From Psychrilyobacter atlanticus DSM 19335 (lineage in GTDB: Bacteria > Fusobacteriota > Fusobacteriia > Fusobacteriales > Fusobacteriaceae), in NCBI RefSeq assembly GCF_000426625.1, contig NZ_KE384548.1:186001-250000 (forward strand): a stretch of 64,000 bases of DNA, given 5' to 3'. The notes under the pieces were generated by a model. It was not told the origin of the DNA and did no database searches. It was given only the letters and a program-made list of their open reading frames with translations. The position numbers were made by a program, and so were the translations under genes. This document shows, piece by piece, positions 33,274-54,559 of this stretch. How positions within the stretch are numbered: position 1 is the first letter of the stretch; every line of letters starts with the position of its first letter.

Positions 33274-33381
33274 TCAAAACAATTCTCTTATTGAATTAGC
33301 TCTCCTAAAAATTTTAAATTGAAATAATTTTGTCTTATGATTCCATGGATCTACTTTAAATTCTAATCCTTTTCCTTGTAT
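33274..33381 (-). CDS. Possible short phage protein with non-AUG start
   Basis: A 35-codon frame (QGKGLEFKVDPWNHKTKLFQ then FKIFRRANSIRELF) of clear coding character at the end of the lysis module, overlapping the holin-like gene. It has no standard start. GGAGG lies seven bases before ATA 33,381, a possible start. A product made by frameshift from the overlapping gene is an alternative. Low certainty. Confidence 0.3.
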   Translation of the reverse strand: MQGKGLEFKVDPWNHKTKLFQFKIFRRANSIRELF

Positions 33382-33665
33382 TTTGAATCCTCCAAACCCA
33401 GCGATATCTTATATTTATCCAGCTCACTATCGATCTGATCATTAGAGGTTAAATTAATGTTTCCATTATGTTTGGATTCCTTTAATCCTTCAGCAAAATC
33501 ACTGAGTACCTTATAAGCTATGTTCCTAGCTTTTACTCCTCCTGTTTCTTCAATTGCATTTCCAACTTTTTTTCCTGTTGTTCTCACTAATGGGGAAGGT
33601 AAAATTAATAATACTATACCCAATAATGTGCTCAATACAAATGGATGTAAAAATATTTCTTTCAT
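33363..33665 (-). CDS. Phage membrane protein, holin-like
   Basis: A 100-residue protein with one strong hydrophobic segment at residues 5-27 and a charged tail. It directly follows the endolysin gene in the lysis module, so holin or spanin-like function is likely from position. No family motif is recognised. GGAGAG precedes ATG. Confidence 0.6.
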   Translation of the reverse strand: MKEIFLHPFVLSTLLGIVLLILPSPLVRTTGKKVGNAIEETGGVKARNIAYKVLSDFAEGLKESKHNGNINLTSNDQIDSELDKYKISLGLEDSKYKEKD

Positions 33666-33677
33666 GTTTCACTCTCC

Positions 33678-34178
33678 TTATATTTCTTTATACGCTATTT
33701 CATAATTTTGAGGAACGACTTTTACGATTGGGCTTGGCCAACTGCAGAATAAATTCCTTTCCGACATCCTTCTTCTGAGTAATCCTTTGGATCTTTTGCC
33801 TGCTGCCTTGGACCATAAATTAAAAATTTTGCAAGCACCTATAAAATTCCTACCATTTACCAATTGGACTATATCAGATTTCCTAAAACTAGATCCTCCA
33901 ATATTGTAACAAAGGGAGACTAGAGCATCATATTGATTTTGATTTATTTTTTTTATCATTATAACCTTTTTGACAACATTTTCATATATTTTTAATTGTT
34001 TTATTAGTTCTAAATCAGCTACTTTTAAGGTCATAATATCGCCTTTCTTAATTTTTACACCATTGACTCTAGTAAATCCCCAACCAATAGTCCAAACGTC
34101 TGCAGGACACTTATATGCCTTCATTTCATAACTTTCAAAATGCTTTATGAGCTCTATTCCTTGTTTAGATATTTTCAT
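33678..34178 (-). CDS. Phage endolysin, GH24 lysozyme
   Basis: A 166-residue T4/P1-type lysozyme that cuts peptidoglycan to release virions. The catalytic spacing E15-(8)-C24-(5)-T30 matches the E-D/C-T triad of the family (FESYEMKAY, CPADVWTIGWGFTR). There is no signal peptide, so it should depend on a holin. It follows the one-segment membrane protein at 34,179 with no gap. Confidence 0.92.
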   Translation of the reverse strand: MKISKQGIELIKHFESYEMKAYKCPADVWTIGWGFTRVNGVKIKKGDIMTLKVADLELIKQLKIYENVVKKVIMIKKINQNQYDALVSLCYNIGGSSFRKSDIVQLVNGRNFIGACKIFNLWSKAAGKRSKGLLRRRMSERNLFCSWPSPIVKVVPQNYEIAYKEI

Positions 34179-34430
34179 TTATCCCTCCTTTTTAGCCTTT
34201 AAATATCCTTCTATTTCAGATAGCTTCATCATGAGTTTATTAAACTCTTCCCTGCTTACTTTTTCAGATAATTTAATTTTGATTTCTTCTACTTCTCTTT
34301 CAATACGATCTATTCGATCACTCCCTTTATCAACTCTTTTAAAGACTCTCTCCCAAAGAGGTTTAGCTAAATTAATTGCTAGTAAGCCTCCTATTATCCA
34401 ATTAGCAGCTATAGCTGTATCTGGGAACAT
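34179..34430 (-). CDS. Phage membrane/coiled-coil protein, possible holin
   Basis: An 83-residue protein with a hydrophobic segment at residues 8-24 followed by a charged coiled coil (RIDRIEREVEEIKIKLSEK). One transmembrane segment with a coiled coil next to the endolysin suggests a holin or antiholin-type role, as in XhlA-like proteins, but the identity is not proven. Its end touches the endolysin start. Confidence 0.6.
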   Translation of the reverse strand: MFPDTAIAANWIIGGLLAINLAKPLWERVFKRVDKGSDRIDRIEREVEEIKIKLSEKVSREEFNKLMMKLSEIEGYLKAKKEG

Positions 34431-40747: not shown

Positions 40748-40947
40748 GGTGGAACAGTTAAGTTTTTAGTATTAGGAATATCAGGACATATCAGTTCTAT
40801 TCCACCACTGAAGATAGCTATATTCATGTATCTGGGGTTAGATCTTATTAGTGATTTAGAGAATTTATCTTCTCCATATACTTTAAAACTAATATTATCC
40901 CAGGTATCTCCCTGGATAGTTTTGTATATATCCACTTCTCTAGTCAA
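40732..40947 (-). CDS. Phage tail protein X (LysM-like)
   Basis: A 71-residue P2 gpX-family protein with a LysM-like fold (IQGDTWDNISFKVYG). It probably anchors hub or tape measure during assembly. It overlaps the tape measure gene by eight bases. Confidence 0.87.
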   Translation of the reverse strand: MTREVDIYKTIQGDTWDNISFKVYGEDKFSKSLIRSNPRYMNIAIFSGGIELICPDIPNTKNLTVPPWRQP

Positions 40948-43387
40948 AACTTAACCTCCTTTCAGTTTTAATATCTTCAGCAATTGTATCTTTAACAATT
41001 TTCTTGATTATTTGCGCAAGATCCTCACTTGATTTTTTTAGGATCTCACTGATATTATCTACATTACCTTGAATAGTAGGATTAAAATCTATCTTAATCT
41101 CTATCTTTTTATCAGTAGAATTGTTAACTAATTTCTTCTCAACTTTGGAAGTTAAAGATGGGATCCCATCTCCAGCAAACATTCCTAATTTAGCTCCTGC
41201 ATGATACCAAAGGCTTTTTGATTGTCTAGTTCTATCATGGGGAACTATAGTTTCTGGTGCATCTCCTACTAGCGCTAAGTGAGGAGTATTTACCGTTCCA
41301 CCTTTTGCATAAGCAGGAACATTGTTAATATTTTGTTTTCTGTTCCAATTACCAGATAGAGCAGATTTTGAAGGTGACTTTAGTTGTTTAGTATTCCTAT
41401 TCTGTAATAAATTTGAAGTTTTAACTTTTTGAAGTGAGGGCAGCTCTTTTGTTTTCTCACCTTTAAATTTCTTATACCAATCATATATTCTTTTAATGCC
41501 CTTTAAAAACATACCCAAAGGACTGTATTCAAATACTTTAAAGATTGGAGATTTTTCAAATACTTCCCATAATTCCAAAGTTTTATCTTTCATCTTTCCT
41601 ATATTGGTTTTAAATCCATTCCATAGTTCTATAGTTTTAGATTCGATCTTATCAAAGTTCTTATAGATTAAATATCCACCTGCAGCAACTGCAGCTAAAA
41701 TTAAAAGGATTGGATTAGACATTAGTGCGGTAAAAGCTGTACCCAGAGCGCCTACTCCAAAAGTGGCTGCTCCAATAGCTAAATTTACTCCTACAAACCC
41801 TGTTGCTGTGAGAGTTAGAAACTCTGTTAGTCCTGGGAATTTCTGTGCAAACCCTGTAATTATCTGAGAGCCTTTAGTAAATAGTTTTGTCAGAACTTTT
41901 AAAGGAGGTAATAAGAAATTAGTAAAAGCCAGACCGAGGTTAAGTAGTGATTTACCTAATATTTTTAATTGAGCTGAGGCAGTACCGTTAACATTATTAA
42001 ATTCATTATTGACACTGTTAGCCACTTTTTTCTTATCATTAATCATATCTAAGTTATTTTGTAATTTCCCTAATTGATTAGTTAAAGGTAGGAGTGCTCC
42101 CACTGCTTCCTCACCAAACAACATGGTTCCTATAGACATTCGTTTACTTTTATCCACATTTTCAAATGCTCCTAGAACCTTCTTGATAGTTCCCATAGAA
42201 TCTTTTTGCATATCTTTTGCAATCTGAGCTGAGTCAAAACCTAGCGCCTCAAAGGCTTCTTTTCTGCTCTTACTAGCTGATTCACCACTACTCATAGTGG
42301 AGTATAGTTTTCTTAATGCAGTACTGGCAGTACTTGCATCTTTAACGCCAAAATCAATAAGACTTGCACCTAAAGCTGCAGTTTCAGAAACTGTTATATT
42401 AGCCATTTTTCCTAAAGGTCCCATAGCAGTTACAATGTCACTTACTTGAGCGGGAGTAACTTTGATATTATCTCCTAATGTATTTATCTGATCTGCTAAT
42501 CCCATAACTTCACTTTGAGTCATTTTCAGGGAGGTTCTCCAGGTGGCAAGATTCCCTCCGGCTTTATCTGCGTCAACACCAAAAGCAACTGCTACCTTTG
42601 CAGTATCAGCGGTAAACTTAGCTAGTTCTTTTTGTTCTATCCCAGCTTGACCTGCAGCAGCAGCTATCTCATATATCTCAGTATTCATCAAAGGGATATC
42701 CTTTGTTGTCTGCAGTAGTTCTTTTCTAAATTTTTGGATTTCTTTAGGGTCACTGATACTTAATTGTTTTTTCACATCTGCAAATGCAGCTTCATCATCT
42801 ATTGCCAACTTAACTCCTACTCCGATCATGAGAGCAGGAGGGATCATTTTCTTCATCCTTTTTTGGCCGTTATCTTTATAATCTTTAAATCGCTTCTGAT
42901 TTTTTCTCATTTTCTCCTGGATCTTAAGATTTCTTTGCATCTTATCTCCAAGTTCTTTTTCACCTTTAGAGAGCATCCATACCCTTGATTTAGCTTTAGA
43001 TAATTCATTACTATATTTTTTTGTGGATTCTTTTGATTTAACTAAAGTTTTATCTAATTGTTTCTGTGTTTGTAATGCTTTTTTAAATTCAATAGTTGCG
43101 GCTTTACTGGCTTTTCCCGATCCATTAACTTGAATCTTTAACTTCTTTATCTTATCTGCTAAAATTTCTGATTCTTTGCTGTTCTTTTGAAATTCAGCAC
43201 GACTTTTAATAAATTGATTTTCTAGTTTAGAGCTTTCTTGTCTGGCTTTTCCTAAAGCTTTACTTCTTGTTTTCATTTGCTTCATTTCTAAGCCTAATTT
43301 TTCTAATTCCTTACTAGCTTTAGTAAAACTTTTCTTTACTGATGGATTAAGGGCTCCACCTATCTTAATAATAAAGTTTCTATTCAT
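40940..43387 (-). CDS. Phage tail tape measure protein
   Basis: An 815-residue protein that sets tail length. The N-terminal third is coiled coil. The conserved tape-measure core follows (about residues 200-400; EIAAAAGQAGIEQKELAKF, WRTSLKMTQSEVMGLADQIN). A hydrophobic block lies at about residues 540-595. The C terminus has KGGTVNTPHLALVGDAPET, common in these proteins. Its ATG lies inside the end of the E' frame. Confidence 0.92.
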   Translation of the reverse strand: MNRNFIIKIGGALNPSVKKSFTKASKELEKLGLEMKQMKTRSKALGKARQESSKLENQFIKSRAEFQKNSKESEILADKIKKLKIQVNGSGKASKAATIEFKKALQTQKQLDKTLVKSKESTKKYSNELSKAKSRVWMLSKGEKELGDKMQRNLKIQEKMRKNQKRFKDYKDNGQKRMKKMIPPALMIGVGVKLAIDDEAAFADVKKQLSISDPKEIQKFRKELLQTTKDIPLMNTEIYEIAAAAGQAGIEQKELAKFTADTAKVAVAFGVDADKAGGNLATWRTSLKMTQSEVMGLADQINTLGDNIKVTPAQVSDIVTAMGPLGKMANITVSETAALGASLIDFGVKDASTASTALRKLYSTMSSGESASKSRKEAFEALGFDSAQIAKDMQKDSMGTIKKVLGAFENVDKSKRMSIGTMLFGEEAVGALLPLTNQLGKLQNNLDMINDKKKVANSVNNEFNNVNGTASAQLKILGKSLLNLGLAFTNFLLPPLKVLTKLFTKGSQIITGFAQKFPGLTEFLTLTATGFVGVNLAIGAATFGVGALGTAFTALMSNPILLILAAVAAGGYLIYKNFDKIESKTIELWNGFKTNIGKMKDKTLELWEVFEKSPIFKVFEYSPLGMFLKGIKRIYDWYKKFKGEKTKELPSLQKVKTSNLLQNRNTKQLKSPSKSALSGNWNRKQNINNVPAYAKGGTVNTPHLALVGDAPETIVPHDRTRQSKSLWYHAGAKLGMFAGDGIPSLTSKVEKKLVNNSTDKKIEIKIDFNPTIQGNVDNISEILKKSSEDLAQIIKKIVKDTIAEDIKTERRLSFD

Positions 43388-43876
43388 CAGGTATCGCCTC
43401 CATCCATTTAACTAGATCTATAAGTTTCAAATCATTAAAAAATTTTATCCCAGTTTTAGTAGCCTGTCCTATCTTTATCATATTGCTCCTAAACTTTAAA
43501 ATTTTTTCTGGTTCATTTAGATCTACGATAATAAGAAACCCTTAACCACTTCTACCAAGACATCAAAATCTGAATGTTTTAACTCTAAGATAGCTTCATA
43601 AGGTAGATCTGCAGCTGCAGCTCCTACGGCAGCTTGATATGCCTGTCCGAATTTAATCTCTGAACTAGAACTATAATATTTACCCTGGGAGACTACCTCT
43701 GCTTCACACAACTTAGCTCCAGTCAAAGAATTGAAATCCATTTTTACTTCTTTAATCTCCACATCATTAAATTTAACAGGGTGTTTTAAATTAATAGTAG
43801 TTACTCCACCGACTACAGTTACATAGTCTTTTTTTATTTTTTTATCTACTGATTTAAGTTCTTTATTTTCTTTCAT
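43380..43876 (-). CDS. Tail assembly chaperone E+E' (-1 frameshift product)
   Basis: The gpE frame contains the slippery heptamer G-GGT-TTC at 43,541-43,535, four codons before its stop. A -1 slip continues through an open frame of 51 codons (VDLNEPEKILKFRSNM to KWMEAIPDE) that stops inside the tape measure start. The fusion would be about 165 residues. P2 makes gpE and gpE+E' in exactly this way, and many tailed phages do the same with their tail assembly chaperones. Confidence 0.8.
43523..43876 (-). CDS. Tail assembly chaperone E
   Basis: A 117-residue protein of the P2/Mu tail assembly chaperone E family (VTTINLKHPVKFNDVEIKEV near the N terminus). It wraps the tape measure protein during tail assembly. 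It is the short product; the long form arises by frameshift. It lies between the tube gene and tape measure as in P2, but with a 508-base gap upstream holding small RNA units. Confidence 0.86.
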   Translation of the reverse strand: MKENKELKSVDKKIKKDYVTVVGGVTTINLKHPVKFNDVEIKEVKMDFNSLTGAKLCEAEVVSQGKYYSSSSEIKFGQAYQAAVGAAAADLPYEAILELKHSDFDVLVEVVKGFLLS

Positions 43877-44384: not shown

Positions 44385-44900
44385 TTATAGGAAATCATCA
44401 TTATCTAGATAATTGATACCATCTACTACAAATTTATTGTTAAGTTTATCAATATGAAGAGTTTCTATCTCATCTACAAATATTCTTAAACTAATTACTT
44501 CAAATTCTGCTTCTGTATCCATAGCTTTAGCTGTTTCTGCTTTTCCTAAGTTTTTGTTCTTAGGAGTTACTTTAGCCATGATTCTAATCTTTCTATTTTT
44601 CACCCTTCCTATAGGACTTCCTGGATCAGCCATCTGAAGATTACCTCTAAAAGCTAATTGATGCATGATAGGTGCAAGAAGTGTTGTAAATTGAGCATTA
44701 ACCGCTCTCTTCTTTATTTTCATTCCCATAGATTTAGTTAACCCGGCAATAGGAACTTCTAATTCTCCTGCTATTCCAGAACCTGTAACTGTATCGGTCA
44801 TAAACTGGATATTAGGTAATTCTACGTCTACTGTTCCTATTTCTTTTAATGCATTTAAATACAAACTAAATCCTTGTAGGGATATTGGAAATCCATTCAT
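44385..44900 (-). CDS. Phage major tail tube protein
   Basis: A 171-residue P2 FII-family tube protein, the inner pipe of the contractile tail. Signature features are LYLNALKEIGTVDVELPNI near the N terminus and KIRIMAKVTPK near residue 107. It overlaps the sheath gene by one base. Confidence 0.9.
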   Translation of the reverse strand: MNGFPISLQGFSLYLNALKEIGTVDVELPNIQFMTDTVTGSGIAGELEVPIAGLTKSMGMKIKKRAVNAQFTTLLAPIMHQLAFRGNLQMADPGSPIGRVKNRKIRIMAKVTPKNKNLGKAETAKAMDTEAEFEVISLRIFVDEIETLHIDKLNNKFVVDGINYLDNDDFL

Positions 44901-46348
44901 TACTTACCACCTCCAAATAGTTTCTTTAAGTATTCTGTATCATACTCTAGAGCTGATTCTATCTTTTCTGCTACTCCTACTGGAGTCATATATCTTTTAA
45001 AATTGTACTTTCCATCCATTAACTTAGTAGTTGGATTATCTTGTTTATTAAACTCGATCCTTCCGCCTAAAATGGCTCCTGTAGTTACTAATCCATTGTA
45101 GTAGTCGTTATAGCTGTCTACGATCTTATCCATTAGCTTATTATTAGCCGGCTTATCTACATCTAACCAGTAAGTCAGAGTAAAGTTGTTGTTATCCCAG
45201 ATAAACATCCTCTTACAAGAGATTGTATTATCTTTAATATCTCTATTAGCTGGATAACATCCAGTTCTATTCCCCCATAATCTCCAACCGTTATTAAAGT
45301 TAATAGAAGTTGCTACTCCATTATCATTTAGATAATCAGCCTGGGTTAATAGAAGATCTACTTCTGTTTTATTCTTCAGACAGATCCCTGTGATATTAAG
45401 AGGTTTATTAGATGGTGATTCATATGGGATATCTCCATTTTTAGTATCTACTGCATACATAGAAGCAGCTACTAAAGTAGAAAGGTGGTAAAGAGTTTTG
45501 TCGATTAATCCCATTGGCCAAAAATTATACAAATTTTCATGGATATAATTATTATCGTTTTTCCATGCAGTGACCTTGTTATACTTATCAATCGTTGTTG
45601 AATCTATATCGGCTAATGCTATGCCGGTAAAGACCTCATTGATACTTTTCATAGCAGATACAAGGACTGTCATTACCTTGCTCTTATCGGTCCATCCAGG
45701 GGCTAATCCGATGTTAGGAACCTTATTAAATTTAGGAAATACCTGATTTATCAGAGCTATTCCTTCGGTCTTTAGAGTAGTTGTATCAATCCCTCCTATA
45801 ACATCTGCTTCAGTTACTAAACCAGGTTTTAGTTTATCGTAGCTTACTTTTCCTGCGTTTAGAGTTCCTGCTAATGTTTCATCTGTAATTATGATACTTA
45901 CAGATCCATCCTCATTGAATACTGCTGTATATTTTTCTTTAGGAACTGGACTATCATCAGATTGTTTTAAAGATAAACTCGGTAACAAAATTCCTTTATC
46001 AGCTATAGTTCCTTTTTTCTTAGTAAATGTGATATCTCCATCACTAACTGCTTCCTTATGGGTAGCAGGATCCAAGACATTTATGAGAACTACTGGTCCT
46101 ACTTTAAATAACCTAAAAAATACATCTATAGCTTCACAAAGGGTATAACTCGCCCAATCATCTGAATATCCAAAGGCTTCTATAGCTTCTCTTTCTGAAT
46201 AACAAAGAACAGGTTTATTGATCTGAGGTGTCTTTGCTAAATTTACCGGTGCAGTTCCTATAATTACTGCGCAATTCCCACTTTCTATTACACTTGCTAT
46301 AGAGGTGGAGGTTTCACTTGTTTTTACTCCATGATTTATATTTCCCAT
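44900..46348 (-). CDS. Phage tail sheath protein
   Basis: A 482-residue P2 FI/Mu L-type sheath. HGVKTSETSTSIASVIES at the N terminus and IGTAPVN near residue 32 mark the family, with the conserved C-terminal handshake region (GGRIEFNKQDNP). Contraction of the sheath drives the tube through the envelope. It shares one base with the gene at 46,348. Confidence 0.93.
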   Translation of the reverse strand: MGNINHGVKTSETSTSIASVIESGNCAVIIGTAPVNLAKTPQINKPVLCYSEREAIEAFGYSDDWASYTLCEAIDVFFRLFKVGPVVLINVLDPATHKEAVSDGDITFTKKKGTIADKGILLPSLSLKQSDDSPVPKEKYTAVFNEDGSVSIIITDETLAGTLNAGKVSYDKLKPGLVTEADVIGGIDTTTLKTEGIALINQVFPKFNKVPNIGLAPGWTDKSKVMTVLVSAMKSINEVFTGIALADIDSTTIDKYNKVTAWKNDNNYIHENLYNFWPMGLIDKTLYHLSTLVAASMYAVDTKNGDIPYESPSNKPLNITGICLKNKTEVDLLLTQADYLNDNGVATSINFNNGWRLWGNRTGCYPANRDIKDNTISCKRMFIWDNNNFTLTYWLDVDKPANNKLMDKIVDSYNDYYNGLVTTGAILGGRIEFNKQDNPTTKLMDGKYNFKRYMTPVGVAEKIESALEYDTEYLKKLFGGGK

Positions 46349-46641
46349 TAGCTTAATACCTCCTCTAATGCTTTATTAAAAAGGATATTTGTTATAGTTC
46401 CTGGTTGATCTATTTCATTTAAAGATTCAACATATTTATCTTCAGAAACAAATAGAGGAGCTATAGATGGATATTTTTCTTTTAATTTCTCTATTTCTTC
46501 AGGGAGATTTCCTCGAAAGATAGTTCCTTTATCTAAAATCCCTCTTTGGACTCCTGGACCTATATAAAATATGCTCACTTTTTTTATCTCTTTTGGTTCT
46601 TCTATTTTTTTCTTTTTAGATTCTTTTTTTACTGCCATCAT
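46348..46641 (-). CDS. Small phage protein before the sheath gene
   Basis: A 97-residue protein with a lysine-rich N terminus (VKKESKKKKIEEPKEIKK) and no recognised domain. It sits where Mu-like phages encode a small DUF2635-type protein before the sheath; that parallel is positional only. Confidence 0.6.
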   Translation of the reverse strand: MMAVKKESKKKKIEEPKEIKKVSIFYIGPGVQRGILDKGTIFRGNLPEEIEKLKEKYPSIAPLFVSEDKYVESLNEIDQPGTITNILFNKALEEVLS

Positions 46642-46647
46642 TCCTCC

Positions 46648-47127
46648 CTACAGATAGTCATCTTGTGGCTGTGTTACTGCTATTTCAAAGGTACATTTAG
46701 TCTCACCGAGGTAATGGGGGAACTCAATCTCTCCATAGACTTCATGTTTCATAGATCTCTTTAATATCCCAAACTGAAAATTGGTATCTTTAAAGAAATC
46801 TTCCCTGATCTTATCTATCACTGAGAGTACATCCCAATGACCAGTTGCATGTGTCAATTTAACTAAAGGTCTACTCTTTTCCCTTTCTCTACTTAACCCA
46901 ATAGTTCCATATAAGATATTAATATCTGCAATACCGCTTAATTCTTTATCTTCAATATGGGTAGTTTGAATTAATATATATGGTTCTCCTCTCACTGCTG
47001 ATTTAGGCAGTGCGCCTGTTTCAACTAGTGGTAAGACAAATTCACCTTTATCGTTTATTAACTGAATACCTTTTACTGCTTCAGTTATTCGTCTTTTTAT
47101 CTCTTGTTCTAAATTTCTTACTGACAT
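46648..47127 (-). CDS. Tail completion/terminator-like phage protein
   Basis: A 159-residue protein just upstream of the sheath. Its size, position and mixed beta pattern suggest a tail terminator or Mu gp37 (DUF1834)-like role at the head-tail interface. Not firmly assigned. Confidence 0.6.
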   Translation of the reverse strand: MSVRNLEQEIKRRITEAVKGIQLINDKGEFVLPLVETGALPKSAVRGEPYILIQTTHIEDKELSGIADINILYGTIGLSREREKSRPLVKLTHATGHWDVLSVIDKIREDFFKDTNFQFGILKRSMKHEVYGEIEFPHYLGETKCTFEIAVTQPQDDYL

Positions 47128-47231
47128 GGCTTCTCCTTTTTATTGATATTTATTGGCGGGGATTCTTTAACGACATTTGAAATATCTTTAACAGTATTTA
47201 AAATTTCCTTACCTATATTTTTAGTTGACAT
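47118..47231 (-). CDS. Small phage protein (37 residues)
   Basis: Encodes MSTKNIGKEILNTVKDISNV followed by VKESPPININKKEKPCQ. AAGGAGG lies seven bases before ATG, and the stop overlaps the start of the next gene, so it is coupled to it. It follows the SPFH gene directly. Function unknown; it is too short for most automatic calls. Confidence 0.6.
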   Translation of the reverse strand: MSTKNIGKEILNTVKDISNVVKESPPININKKEKPCQ

Positions 47232-47240
47232 AATGCCTCC

Positions 47241-48134
47241 TTAGTTTCTAATATCTATTATTGGAGTTCCTCCAGAAGTAACTTGCGGTAATTCTCCATT
47301 CCATCTTAGGGTTTGTTCATATCTAATTAATTCATCTGATAAAGATTTTTTCTTTAGATCATTGGCTTTAGATTGGGCTTTAGCTACAGTTAATATTCTC
47401 TCTGCTTCAGCTTTAGCTTGAATTAATTTAACATTTGCTTTTCCTTGCTCCTGGATAGCATTTCTTTCAGCTTCAATTTGAGCTTTTTGTTTTTCAATCT
47501 TTTGTCTTTCTAATTCTTGTTGTGTATTTACTCTTTGTTGAATAACTGTAGCAGTGGCTTTATCTAGTCCTATTCTTGAGAAATTAACAGATTCAATGAT
47601 TATTCCATCTTTAGCAAACTTTTCTTTAATATGCTGATAAGCCTTTAAGTTTAGATCTGCCCGTTTAGATCCATAAATATCAAGGACACTAAATTTAGAA
47701 GTTACCTCGGAAACATATGCTTTTATCTTTACTCTGGTATATGTATTCTGAATAAGTTCTCCACTTTTACCTTTAAATCGAGTAAATATTTTAGCAACTT
47801 TATTTTCATCATATCTATATGAATATTCTAAATCTACATTTACCATCTTTCCATCTGAAGTAGGAACTATAAAGGAATCATTATCTTCTGAACCTTCCCT
47901 TTCATCTGCAGATAAATATGCTTGTTCTGTTCCTACGGTATATTCTGTTACATTTTTAAAAGGATTGATAAGGTTGTATCCTTGGGTTAACACCTTTTCT
48001 TGAACTCCTCCATTAGGGCTATAAACAACACCTACATATCCTGCGGATATTCTATGACATGATTTAGTCATCATTAATATCGCCATAACTATTACAATCA
48101 TTACCGCACTTGTTTTTTTTCCATTAATTATCAT
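47241..48134 (-). CDS. SPFH/prohibitin-like membrane protein in the phage
   Basis: A 297-residue SPFH (band 7) protein. One N-terminal membrane helix (residues 9-26) is followed by YVGVVYSPNGGVQEKVLTQG and FNPFK-type sequence at the start of the SPFH domain. A long coiled coil rich in Glu, Ala, Lys and Gln (about residues 195-265) and SGGTPIIDI follow. The fold forms membrane rings, as in prohibitin, HflK/HflC and stomatin. It is embedded between a minor tail protein and the tail terminator-like gene, an unexpected place. Possible roles are control of a membrane protease such as FtsH, exclusion of other phages or a membrane scaffold during lysis. None is shown by sequence. Confidence 0.88.
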   Translation of the reverse strand: MIINGKKTSAVMIVIVMAILMMTKSCHRISAGYVGVVYSPNGGVQEKVLTQGYNLINPFKNVTEYTVGTEQAYLSADEREGSEDNDSFIVPTSDGKMVNVDLEYSYRYDENKVAKIFTRFKGKSGELIQNTYTRVKIKAYVSEVTSKFSVLDIYGSKRADLNLKAYQHIKEKFAKDGIIIESVNFSRIGLDKATATVIQQRVNTQQELERQKIEKQKAQIEAERNAIQEQGKANVKLIQAKAEAERILTVAKAQSKANDLKKKSLSDELIRYEQTLRWNGELPQVTSGGTPIIDIRN

Positions 48135-48151
48135 TTTTGTCCTCCTAATTT

Positions 48152-48703
48152 TTATTTTTCAAAGAATTTTTCTACTTGTGTTCCTAGGTTCTTTTCTAGT
48201 TTTTCTTGGATAAGCTCCTCTATAAATTCAATTACATTATTTGTTTCTAGCATCCCACCGGTAGAGTATCCTCTTTGTAAACTAATGGGATTTCTTTTCT
48301 TCCCGTCTCTTCTGAATACCTGAACATTCCCAGGTTGATTCTTGGGAGCATTAACAAATCCTCTTTTTAGTTCTTTAAGTCCACCGCTCCTGCTTTGAGC
48401 TACTTTGATAGGACCGTTACTTGGGATATCTACTTTAAATCTTTTAAGAGTAAAAGTATCCTTTTTCCTGTTATTTTTAACCTGGGCTACTGTGTTGCTT
48501 TCACTGGCTTTTTTTATCGTGATACTGGCATTTATAGGTTTCTTGTCAATATAGAATTCATCTATAATACGACTAACTATATCTCTTTTAGCTTCCAGGG
48601 CTGCCTTATTAGCAGCCCCTGAAACTACACTTTCAATACCATCTGTTATTCCCTCTAGTTCCTTTGTTATTTTAGCGAGTAACTTGCTATCTATTTCAAT
48701 CAT
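48152..48703 (-). CDS. Minor tail protein Z / head-tail joining protein
   Basis: A 183-residue protein resembling the lambda gpZ family (AKRDIVSRIIDEFYIDKKPI; a basic middle with FRRDGKKRNPI). It joins the capsid-proximal end of the tail. It lies downstream of the FII-like joining protein as in lambda. Confidence 0.75.
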   Translation of the reverse strand: MIEIDSKLLAKITKELEGITDGIESVVSGAANKAALEAKRDIVSRIIDEFYIDKKPINASITIKKASESNTVAQVKNNRKKDTFTLKRFKVDIPSNGPIKVAQSRSGGLKELKRGFVNAPKNQPGNVQVFRRDGKKRNPISLQRGYSTGGMLETNNVIEFIEELIQEKLEKNLGTQVEKFFEK

Positions 48704-48724
48704 AAAATTTCACCTTTAGTAGAA

Positions 48725-49042
48725 TTATCTATAATTAATAGCTATATCTATTCGGTATGTATTCCCTAGATCTTCTATGTCTATAATCTCATAAGAAACA
48801 TCATCCATCTCTACTCTGTCGTTAGGGGCTAAATTTGATGGGAAGTCTGTTTTTCTAATAGATACGCATATCCCATTGGTATAGATCCCCATCTGTTCAG
48901 CTTTACCTTTGTATTTTGTCCTGAAGGTTTCAGATGATTTAACTACTACTATTTCATTACCTTCAAAGATAACTTTTTCTCCTATTTCTTCAGGATCAAA
49001 GAAAAGATCTAGATCCTCATCCATCAGATCTTTAAAGTTCAT
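48725..49042 (-). CDS. Head-tail joining protein (FII-like)
   Basis: A 105-residue protein in the position of lambda gpFII, with a beta-rich sequence (VSIRKTDFPSNLAPNDRVEM, VSYEIIDIEDL). It likely forms the ring where the tail attaches. It overlaps the preceding gene by 11 bases. Confidence 0.7.
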   Translation of the reverse strand: MNFKDLMDEDLDLFFDPEEIGEKVIFEGNEIVVVKSSETFRTKYKGKAEQMGIYTNGICVSIRKTDFPSNLAPNDRVEMDDVSYEIIDIEDLGNTYRIDIAINYR

Positions 49043-49343
49043 CTTCAGCCTCCATAATTGCTTCTATGATCTCAGCTTTTTTAGTCACCTTTAACTCTAG
49101 TTCCATATCCACTGCAATCTCTTTTAGATCTGCGACATTTAATTCATCTAATTCTTTTCGTCTTTTTTCTTGTGCTAATTCTTCAGGAGTTTTCTTCTCC
49201 TGGAAGTGAGACTTTTTTTCAGTTACAAAATCAGATTTAATTAGATCGACTGCATCTTTATCTTCTAATTCTATAACTGTGCCTGGCTTATATGTTTTCC
49301 CTTTATATTCAATGGCTGTTAATTTAACTTTACATTTTTTCAT
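49032..49343 (-). CDS. Head module protein with LEM/SAP-like C terminus
   Basis: A 103-residue protein. The N-terminal part is beta-rich (YKGKTYKPGTVIELEDKDA); the C-terminal 35 residues (LNVADLKEIAVDMELELKVT) fit a small helix-extended-helix domain seen in phage head completion proteins. It lies directly after the capsid gene and probably takes the place of lambda gpFI. Confidence 0.6.
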   Translation of the reverse strand: MKKCKVKLTAIEYKGKTYKPGTVIELEDKDAVDLIKSDFVTEKKSHFQEKKTPEELAQEKRRKELDELNVADLKEIAVDMELELKVTKKAEIIEAIMEAEDEL

Positions 49344-53410: not shown

Positions 53411-53851
53411 TTATAGATTTTTATTTAATAATTTACTAATCAGATCTACACCTCTTTGATAAACTAGAGTTTTAATGTTTATAGATATTTCTCCATTCGA
53501 TTTGGTAAACTTAGTTTCTATAGTTCTAAAGCATCCATTATCTATGTATTTTTGATAAGGCTGGTTATTTTGCATTAATATTTTTTTTCTCTTTAAAAAT
53601 TCAAATAACTTTTTTCTTCCATAACCTTTTTTATTTATAACTTTGGCAATTACTCCTAAATCTAGGGCGTCTCTAGATCCTGTTATTGTTTCAAAAAATT
53701 TTATTTTGTGTTTATCCTCTTTTATTTTTTGTTTTAAAACTTGTATTTCTTTTTGCTCTTTTATCCAAGCGTTAGCTCTTTCTATTGGATCAGTTATTTT
53801 ATAGCTTGGAATTTCCCCATTTTTTGCCAAGACTAAATTCTTATGTTTCAT
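53411..53851 (-). CDS. KilAC-domain antirepressor-like protein
   Basis: A 146-residue protein whose C-terminal two thirds match the KilAC domain (LGVIAKVINKKGYGRKKLFE, LMQNNQPYQKYIDNGCF). KilAC occurs at the C terminus of phage antirepressors. Here it is a separate gene just after an AntA-domain gene. Both lie within the head genes, which is unusual. Confidence 0.85.
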   Translation of the reverse strand: MKHKNLVLAKNGEIPSYKITDPIERANAWIKEQKEIQVLKQKIKEDKHKIKFFETITGSRDALDLGVIAKVINKKGYGRKKLFEFLKRKKILMQNNQPYQKYIDNGCFRTIETKFTKSNGEISINIKTLVYQRGVDLISKLLNKNL

Positions 53852-53860
53852 ATTTTCCTC

Positions 53861-54559
53861 CTAAAGATCTAACCCGTATACATGGCCCCATACATCTGAA
53901 TGATATGCATTTGCTTCCCCGTATCTAGGGCAGGGGACTTTCTTTATTTCATAACCTAATGCAATACTATTACTCTTTAGTTCTTGCCACTTAAAGTTAC
54001 CTTTGAACTGTTTTTGTGCTCTACTAACTGTATAATAATTATTTAAAATCCCAAGTTCTTTTTGAGTATCATCTAATTCTTCTTCTAGGGCTTTATTATC
54101 TGCTAAAACTACTTTTATATGCCTAAATGAGCTATCTTCTCTTTGTAACATCATCAGATTCCCACGAGCTTCTAGTTTTTCCTTTTCTTCTATTGTTGCG
54201 ACTAATTCTAACAATGCATCTTTATAGCTAATTGGTAATTTATTTTTATTCAATTGTTTCTCACACTCTATAAAATATTGTCTAACCTCTTTTCCTTTTG
54301 GTACGTTTGATAGCATAGCCAATTCTTTTGCAGTATCTAATTTCAAAATATATTCTATTCGTGGTCTAGGTACTGATTTTGTTGAATTCGCCTTATAAGT
54401 TGTATAATCTACGCCTTCAATTAATCCATAATTGCTATTTTTTACATATGTTTTTATCCAATTGGAAAAATCTTTTTTTACTTCTAAAAATCTATGCAAC
54501 TCTCTAGCACTAACAAGTTGTTCCCCTTTTTCATTTTTAGTTATTTTTATTAACTCCAT
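53861..54559 (-). CDS. AntA/AntB-type antirepressor
   Basis: A 232-residue antirepressor. The N-terminal AntA domain is clear (VSARELHRFLEVKKDFSNW, YILKLDTAKELAMLSNVPKG). The C-terminal part has a coiled coil and a second domain (NNYYTVSRAQKQFKGNFKW). Such proteins bind or displace repressors to trigger lytic growth. It lies between the gpW-like and KilAC genes inside the head module. Confidence 0.87.
   Translation of the reverse strand: MELIKITKNEKGEQLVSARELHRFLEVKKDFSNWIKTYVKNSNYGLIEGVDYTTYKANSTKSVPRPRIEYILKLDTAKELAMLSNVPKGKEVRQYFIECEKQLNKNKLPISYKDALLELVATIEEKEKLEARGNLMMLQREDSSFRHIKVVLADNKALEEELDDTQKELGILNNYYTVSRAQKQFKGNFKWQELKSNSIALGYEIKKVPCPRYGEANAYHSDVWGHVYGLDL

Follow-up and report, generated by a model that had tools for sequence, protein, structure and literature searches.

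The late operon of a contractile-tail prophage of Psychrilyobacter atlanticus DSM 19335 carries a gene for an SPFH/Band_7 protein, and since relatives with the same gene order do without it, we regard this gene as facultative cargo and not as a needed part of the virion. The explanation of its role that we tentatively favor, which in our estimate still falls somewhat short of an even chance, is that of optional late-operon cargo whose product would scaffold or shield the inner membrane, or FtsH/HflKC, until lysis. Phage SPFH genes are already known; the version studied here differs by its site and by a missing partner. Throughout, the window is the whole stretch of 64,000 nucleotides that we analyzed (contig NZ_KE384548.1, positions 186,001 to 250,000). 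The features on which the argument turns are as follows (window positions):

48152 to 48703, minus strand: neck1 or minor tail Z-like gene (gpZ183), the upstream flank (Minor_tail_Z 3.3e-06; phrog_27 1.6e-21)
48135 to 48151, minus strand: SPFH leader of 17 nt with an AGGAGG ribosome-binding site, the upstream boundary of the inserted cassette
47241 to 48134, minus strand: SPFH/Band_7 protein, with a predicted transmembrane helix (residues 5-25), an SPFH domain (about 28-190) and a long helix (192-264)
47118 to 47231, minus strand: 37-aa ORF, lacking a hydrophobic stretch and having its own Shine-Dalgarno sequence
46648 to 47127, minus strand: p159, a virion structural protein, the downstream flank (phrog_2581 3.1e-11)
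44900 to 46348, minus strand: tail sheath (Pfam below cut-off; up to 42% identity to annotated sheath proteins)
33363 to 34430, minus strand: lysis cassette of the same prophage, with an endolysin at 33678-34178 (phrog_7 6.3e-49)

The SPFH protein and its predicted structure

The SPFH ORF is complete, begins with ATG and encodes 297 residues. Pfam Band_7 (PF01145) matched residues 28-219 (E = 4.4e-21; 76.1 bits vs. a curated cut-off of 23.6) and PHROG 200 matched nearly the full length (residues 4-296; E = 1.3e-57), bearing out the first-pass annotation of a complete SPFH protein; the N-terminal membrane helix that it described is likewise predicted by AlphaFold2. The AlphaFold2 model, for which 46 sequences from the window, viral loci and genome loci served as input, had a mean pLDDT of 81 and a pTM of 0.58, with the last 20 residues as its low-confidence part. 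In this model helix 5-25 is followed by the SPFH fold, a helix of 73 residues (192-264), in line with the long coiled coil of the first-pass annotation, and a short helix (267-277). The N-terminal helix is predicted to anchor the protein in the cytoplasmic membrane.

When solved chains were compared with the model using Foldseek and VIA-align, human prohibitin came out on top (8rrh_A: Foldseek 2.4e-16; Z 18.6, rmsd 2.5 over 217 residues), followed by erlin, HflK/C, flotillin and stomatin. A sequence-profile search of the PDB also returned prohibitin (PHB1/2) as the best match (2.7e-12), followed by QmcA (3.9e-11) and HflK (1.1e-6). Human prohibitin is a mitochondrial, two-gene heteromer and shares 15-18% identity with the window's protein. 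Because the identity to the matching solved assemblies is only ~11-18%, function is not readable from them. The best solved relatives by fold similarity are ring-forming assemblies and, by this family precedent, the SPFH protein should assemble into a domed ring. It also has the fold of E. coli HflK/HflC with FtsH (7vhq, 7wi3, 9cz2). However, HflK and HflC are encoded by a gene pair, whereas the window's SPFH gene is single and matched no NCBIfam family at E <= 0.01, and so no hflC/hflK equivalog; HflC/HflK orthology was rejected for lack of such a match. A search for an adjacent NfeD gene, the partner of stomatin/QmcA-type proteins, gave no match at E <= 0.01, the neighbors being neck1, the 37-aa ORF and p159. 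Another SPFH gene on a prophage, HflK/C-like PM0222 of Pasteurella multocida, lies on a lambda-like prophage island and differs in that its product is described as vesicle-secreted and immune-active (available text of PMC9872710).

At the end of the membrane helix lies Cys26 (window 48057-48059). By a crude count within a window of 8 residues (FNU2 dropped), a cysteine ends the helix in 8/8 prophage, 37/43 IMG/VR, 6/9 deposited-phage and 1/3 chromosomal SPFH proteins. Bacterial lipoproteins are recognized by a lipobox motif; ahead of the conserved cysteine all eight prophage proteins have TKSC or FKSC instead of this motif. The conserved cysteine also occurs where the lipobox is absent, and lipidation or another role is possible.

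Position in the late operon

The SPFH gene is co-oriented with the terminase, portal, capsid, neck, sheath and tape-measure genes of the prophage. The operon reads terminase, gpW-like, two antirepressor-like ORFs, portal, protease, decoration, capsid, 103-aa protein, FII-like, neck1/gpZ, SPFH, 37-aa ORF, p159, p97, sheath, tube, tape measure, baseplate, fibre and lysis genes. The co-orientation and tight spacing noted at first pass were confirmed, as the SPFH gene starts 17 nt after neck1/gpZ and ends 9 nt before the 37-aa ORF. A leader of 16-18 nt containing AGGAGG, reaching back to the end of neck1, was present in all eight SPFH-bearing loci that we compared. Judging by its position, p159 is probably the tail terminator, and two small ORFs next to the endolysin, each with a hydrophobic stretch, may have a holin/spanin role.

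The first-pass annotation had described the 37-residue peptide as coupled to the SPFH protein. The ORF does exist directly downstream, has a Shine-Dalgarno-like AAGGAGG before it and shares 10 nt with p159; it had no match in Pfam or PHROG. It is found, at somewhat variable length, in 6/8 SPFH-bearing relatives and is absent from L008 and from copy a of G058, ruling out an obligatory coupling with SPFH.

Scanning positions 46500-49200 gave 8 promoter-like sites (vs. 10.3 in shuffles) and 2 terminator-like sites (vs. 1.5). One promoter-like match on the SPFH strand (9 of 12; 48162-48133) sits right at the gene start, so a weak promoter of its own is possible. The SPFH gene lies midway in the late operon, with no clear promoter or terminator of its own. 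From its tight position among structural genes and the lack of a clear promoter, we infer that it is expressed late.

The antirepressor-like ORFs (window 53411-54559) lie between the portal and gpW-like genes, which are ~9 nt apart in six related loci and ~700 nt apart in the host's own third prophage. Because this spacing varies among loci, we read these ORFs as a second facultative insertion in the late operon.

Presence and absence between neck1 and p159

A locus counted as a close relative if its capsid protein, or as much of it as was available, was at least 88% identical. Among the 11 close relatives with both flanks, SPFH lies between neck1 and p159 in eight: the window's prophage (L007), another prophage of its genome, a prophage in G054, two in G058, and the IMG/VR contigs L008, L009 and L010, of which the first two come from one metagenome sample. 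Capsid or p159 as the query also found all eight loci, and the count is therefore no artefact of SPFH queries. G056 (L060) was left outside the count, as its contig ends inside neck1. The positional conservation in related prophages that the first-pass annotation had proposed to survey is thus there, and relatives keep the slot, unlike what would be seen for an insertion unique to this strain. Compared with phages of the wider family, the gene is nonetheless an insertion.

The three close relatives without SPFH, which the capsid and p159 queries also brought up, are the host's own third prophage (L059 = L079; neck1 96% and p159 94% identical), L075 and L076. In these, neck1 and the next gene are 8-9 nt apart; the gene is thus missing from an otherwise intact site in close relatives, as expected of a moron. 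SPFH was also absent from four of four remoter prophages, namely L080, the near copies G041 and G042, and G053, which is apparently identical to L081. It was likewise absent from three of three deposited phages that share this gene order (Vibrio phage X29, Fusobacterium phage Funu1, Paenibacillus phage Lily), in which neck1 overlaps the next gene by 4 nt. Because the relatives lacking SPFH have tight junctions, neck1 and the next gene were probably joined in the ancestor, with SPFH as the insertion. Given these absences, the first-pass view of SPFH as a member of the structural module is not supported. Across 98 genomes there were 19 capsid matches, with SPFH in 5; the other 14 capsid-matching stretches, some of which are short contigs, gave no SPFH match. 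Presence of SPFH changes at least 3 times on the p159 tree and 4 times on the neck1 tree (2 and 1 of these changes, respectively, being forced by starred branches), suggesting that it was probably gained or lost more than once.

In genome G000, a shared late module is found in three closely related prophages (C2 near 1508700, C3 near 234000 and C3 near 836600), two with SPFH and one without. The window's host, in which SPFH is present in two prophages and absent from the same site in another, provides a natural comparison.

Selection and origin

Median pairwise dN/dS (Nei-Gojobori, own script; saturated pairs dropped, namely 7/36 for FII and 2/36 for neck1) was lowest for SPFH among six genes (SPFH: 0.065; capsid: 0.075; p159: 0.121; FII: 0.124; 103-aa protein: 0.130; neck1: 0.145), indicating that the SPFH gene is under strong purifying selection and does something. 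Its GC content was 0.321 (five neighbors: 0.323-0.351) and its third-position GC 0.184, the lowest of the six (others: 0.223-0.274). A recent unconstrained acquisition is not supported by dN/dS and GC, although third-position GC is lowest.

In a tree of 69 rows (alignment A7, without L106, L126, L131, L133 and L137; tree without L126, L131 and L133), the eight prophage proteins formed one clade (100/100) that joined three chromosomal SPFH genes at 100/99, with phage L086 next (98/91). All of these fell among phage SPFH proteins, while the host's four Band_7 proteins stood apart (100/100) on very long branches, which make the deep joins of this tree unsafe. The chromosomal genes, which belong to related genomes (G048, G012 and G049), are 53-63% identical to the prophage genes, occur in 3/61 genomes searched and have a metabolic neighborhood, one being on a 4-kb contig. 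Like the window's gene, they have no small membrane partner upstream; unlike it, they have no match to the window's other late genes nearby. Capture from chromosome to prophage is the simplest reading, with the direction inferred.

Phage SPFH genes and a tiny membrane-protein gene

SPFH matched 732 of 50,697 phage records (duplicates included). SPFH ORFs of T4-like phages were already listed in 2006 (PMC1524935, in the part available), and those of Kayvirus (MbpS), Bacillus phages AR9/PBS1, PJN02, N4-like and P1-like phages belong to the same family as the window's, PHROG 200, labeled 'lipoprotein'. In ten deposited phages compared in full, the SPFH proteins were 22-36% identical to that of the window. 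Where 5-9 kb of flank was available (ten deposited phages), the neighbors of SPFH are genes for DNA metabolism, tRNA, lysis or terminase, or early genes, and in none of the ten does it lie between neck and tail genes as in the window. With short flanks, SPFH of Erwinia phage phiEaP8 follows a gene annotated as capsid decoration. Among 63 IMG/VR, 10 deposited and 3 chromosomal loci, a match to another late protein of the window was found only in L147 (terminase), by a test that is blind to unrelated structural genes.

A tiny membrane-protein gene, defined as an ORF of 28-110 aa with a transmembrane segment ending at most 60 nt upstream of SPFH, directly preceded SPFH in 44/49 scored IMG/VR loci, or 43/49 as the careful figure, since the L112 match looks like a wrong-frame artefact. 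Looser limits gave 38/44. The IMG/VR loci had been retrieved using patterns of the subfamily to which the window's protein belongs; L093 was dropped beforehand (no motif found) and identical C-terminal sequences were counted once. In the same loci, such a gene lay upstream of 19/307 other genes (Fisher p ~2e-35 with relatedness ignored). In deposited phages it was upstream in 12/24 and downstream in 3/24 (one pilin-like), these 24 having been picked by the author from phage match lists and being, like the 49 loci, a non-independent sample. Loci with the tiny gene before SPFH fall within L086-L148, L032-L035 and L155-L164.

By eye there are at least two partner types: the commoner has ~50 aa and one predicted transmembrane helix (consensus MNPVF..LV......W..L....F..IG........DAK from 22 sequences), and the other, found in N4-like VEc25, Cyrano, RCS47 and Spe5P4, has ~68 aa and two hydrophobic stretches. 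None of eight partner proteins matched Pfam above cut-off, and ten searched against PHROG matched unknown-function or generic families only. In the window's group, no tiny gene was found upstream of SPFH in L008, L010 or L023 (3/8 loci scanned). Searching the window's genome with a profile built from 22 of the 44 partners returned five matches, all weak and unconvincing; the best (E = 0.014), inside a 389-aa frame, was rejected as weak.

We consider the frequent pairing of phage SPFH with a preceding tiny membrane-protein gene to be a new and more interesting lead. The literature that we searched on SPFH and phages, superinfection, N4 and small partners did not yield such a general pairing, the available text on Kayvirus notes mbpV beside mbpS (PMC7150955), and an account of prokaryotic SPFH evolution (PMC2636767) contains no word beginning with phage, viral or virus. 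In the parts available of the literature that we found, the role of phage SPFH is called unclear or only guessed, despite the 732 records. The tiny partner in N4-like phages, AR9/PBS1 and Kayvirus, which have laboratory hosts, is a concrete, testable one, so the purpose of phage prohibitin-like proteins becomes testable. One doubtful, though possible, interpretation is that phage SPFH is half of a widespread two-part membrane module, in which the ring would enclose or gate the tiny protein and time membrane failure; the window's group would then have a partner-less form, taken back from a chromosome and tied into late expression, whose target would be a host protein or the holin of the phage itself.

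A possible late membrane role and its alternatives

Comparison shows that the SPFH gene, together with a ribosome-binding site of its own, is an insertion between neck1 and p159 in the late operon of a temperate contractile-tail phage. In the late membrane role that we favor, its product, a phage-type prohibitin-like SPFH protein, would be made late, during assembly, would place its N-terminal helix in the cytoplasmic membrane and then form a domed ring. While virions accumulate, the ring may scaffold or shield the host inner membrane, or FtsH/HflKC quality control there, so that membrane failure or loss of phage membrane proteins would be delayed until the holin triggers. The tiny membrane gene before SPFH in most viral loci suits a membrane role; its absence beside the window's gene and the lack of a convincing match to it in the genome count against this explanation, as do the promoter-like match at the gene start and the low identity to the solved assemblies. 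The mbpS gene of Kayvirus sits among lysis genes, and its authors suggest that MbpS may help secretion of a lytic enzyme (PMC7150955, as far as available). A precedent for membrane upkeep comes from B. subtilis, where PspA, a phage-shock protein, is connected with the membrane through an SPFH protein (available part of PMC8581546). Such upkeep is also compatible with action in lysogens.

We find it unlikely that SPFH is instead an exclusion or defence moron, whose ring would alter the inner membrane and block DNA entry of other phages. This would suit facultative and strongly conserved cargo at one slot, whose presence changes 3-4 times on the flank trees; moreover, in N4-like Escherichia phage VEc25 (L162), SPFH lies two genes after a superinfection exclusion gene, by annotation only. 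In the available text of a preprint on N4 lysis, the exclusion system of N4 is said not to be characterized (PMC12642591). However, a late gene lacking a clear promoter or terminator of its own would protect a lysogen little. SPFH is found, too, in named phages that we take to be strictly lytic. A PADLOC-type defence gene was set aside, as SPFH had no PADLOC match.

Slightly less probable is a decoy or extra HflK/C subunit that would shift FtsH proteolysis and the lysis-lysogeny balance. SPFH has the fold of HflK/C, and the host encodes one Peptidase_M41 (FtsH-type) protein as well as an adjacent Band_7 pair (C2:306442-307873), which we take to be HflK/HflC. The same proposal, a lysogeny role by analogy with HflKC, has been published for SPFH genes of other phages, with the remark that phages characterized as lytic carry SPFH too (available parts of PMC8540360 and PMC4936722). 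Against it stand the separation from the host's four Band_7 proteins in the tree, the missing NCBIfam match and a late operon position that suits a lysogeny decision poorly. A role in the lysogeny decision, or in lysogens, is less likely given a place midway in the late operon with no clear promoter, and a late role in lysis or membrane upkeep fits better.

It is improbable that SPFH is a passenger, selfish or close to neutral, taken from a host chromosome; its nearest non-prophage relatives are single chromosomal genes in few genomes and its third-position GC is the lowest of six, but its dN/dS is low and it is kept in most of the close relatives. Least probable of all is a minor neck protein, in the virion or in its assembly, as hinted by the place between neck1 and p159, by the capsid decoration gene before SPFH in phiEaP8 and by low counts of SPFH peptides in virion preparations of two other phages (PMC10892097 and PMC6034870, in the parts available), since such counts suit membrane contamination and the relatives with the same gene order but no SPFH led us to reject it as the best explanation.

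Elsewhere in the late operon, the tape measure and a tail-chaperone-like gene (window 40940-43876) are only 37-92% identical between prophages whose neighboring genes are ~90% identical, as if this block had been swapped.
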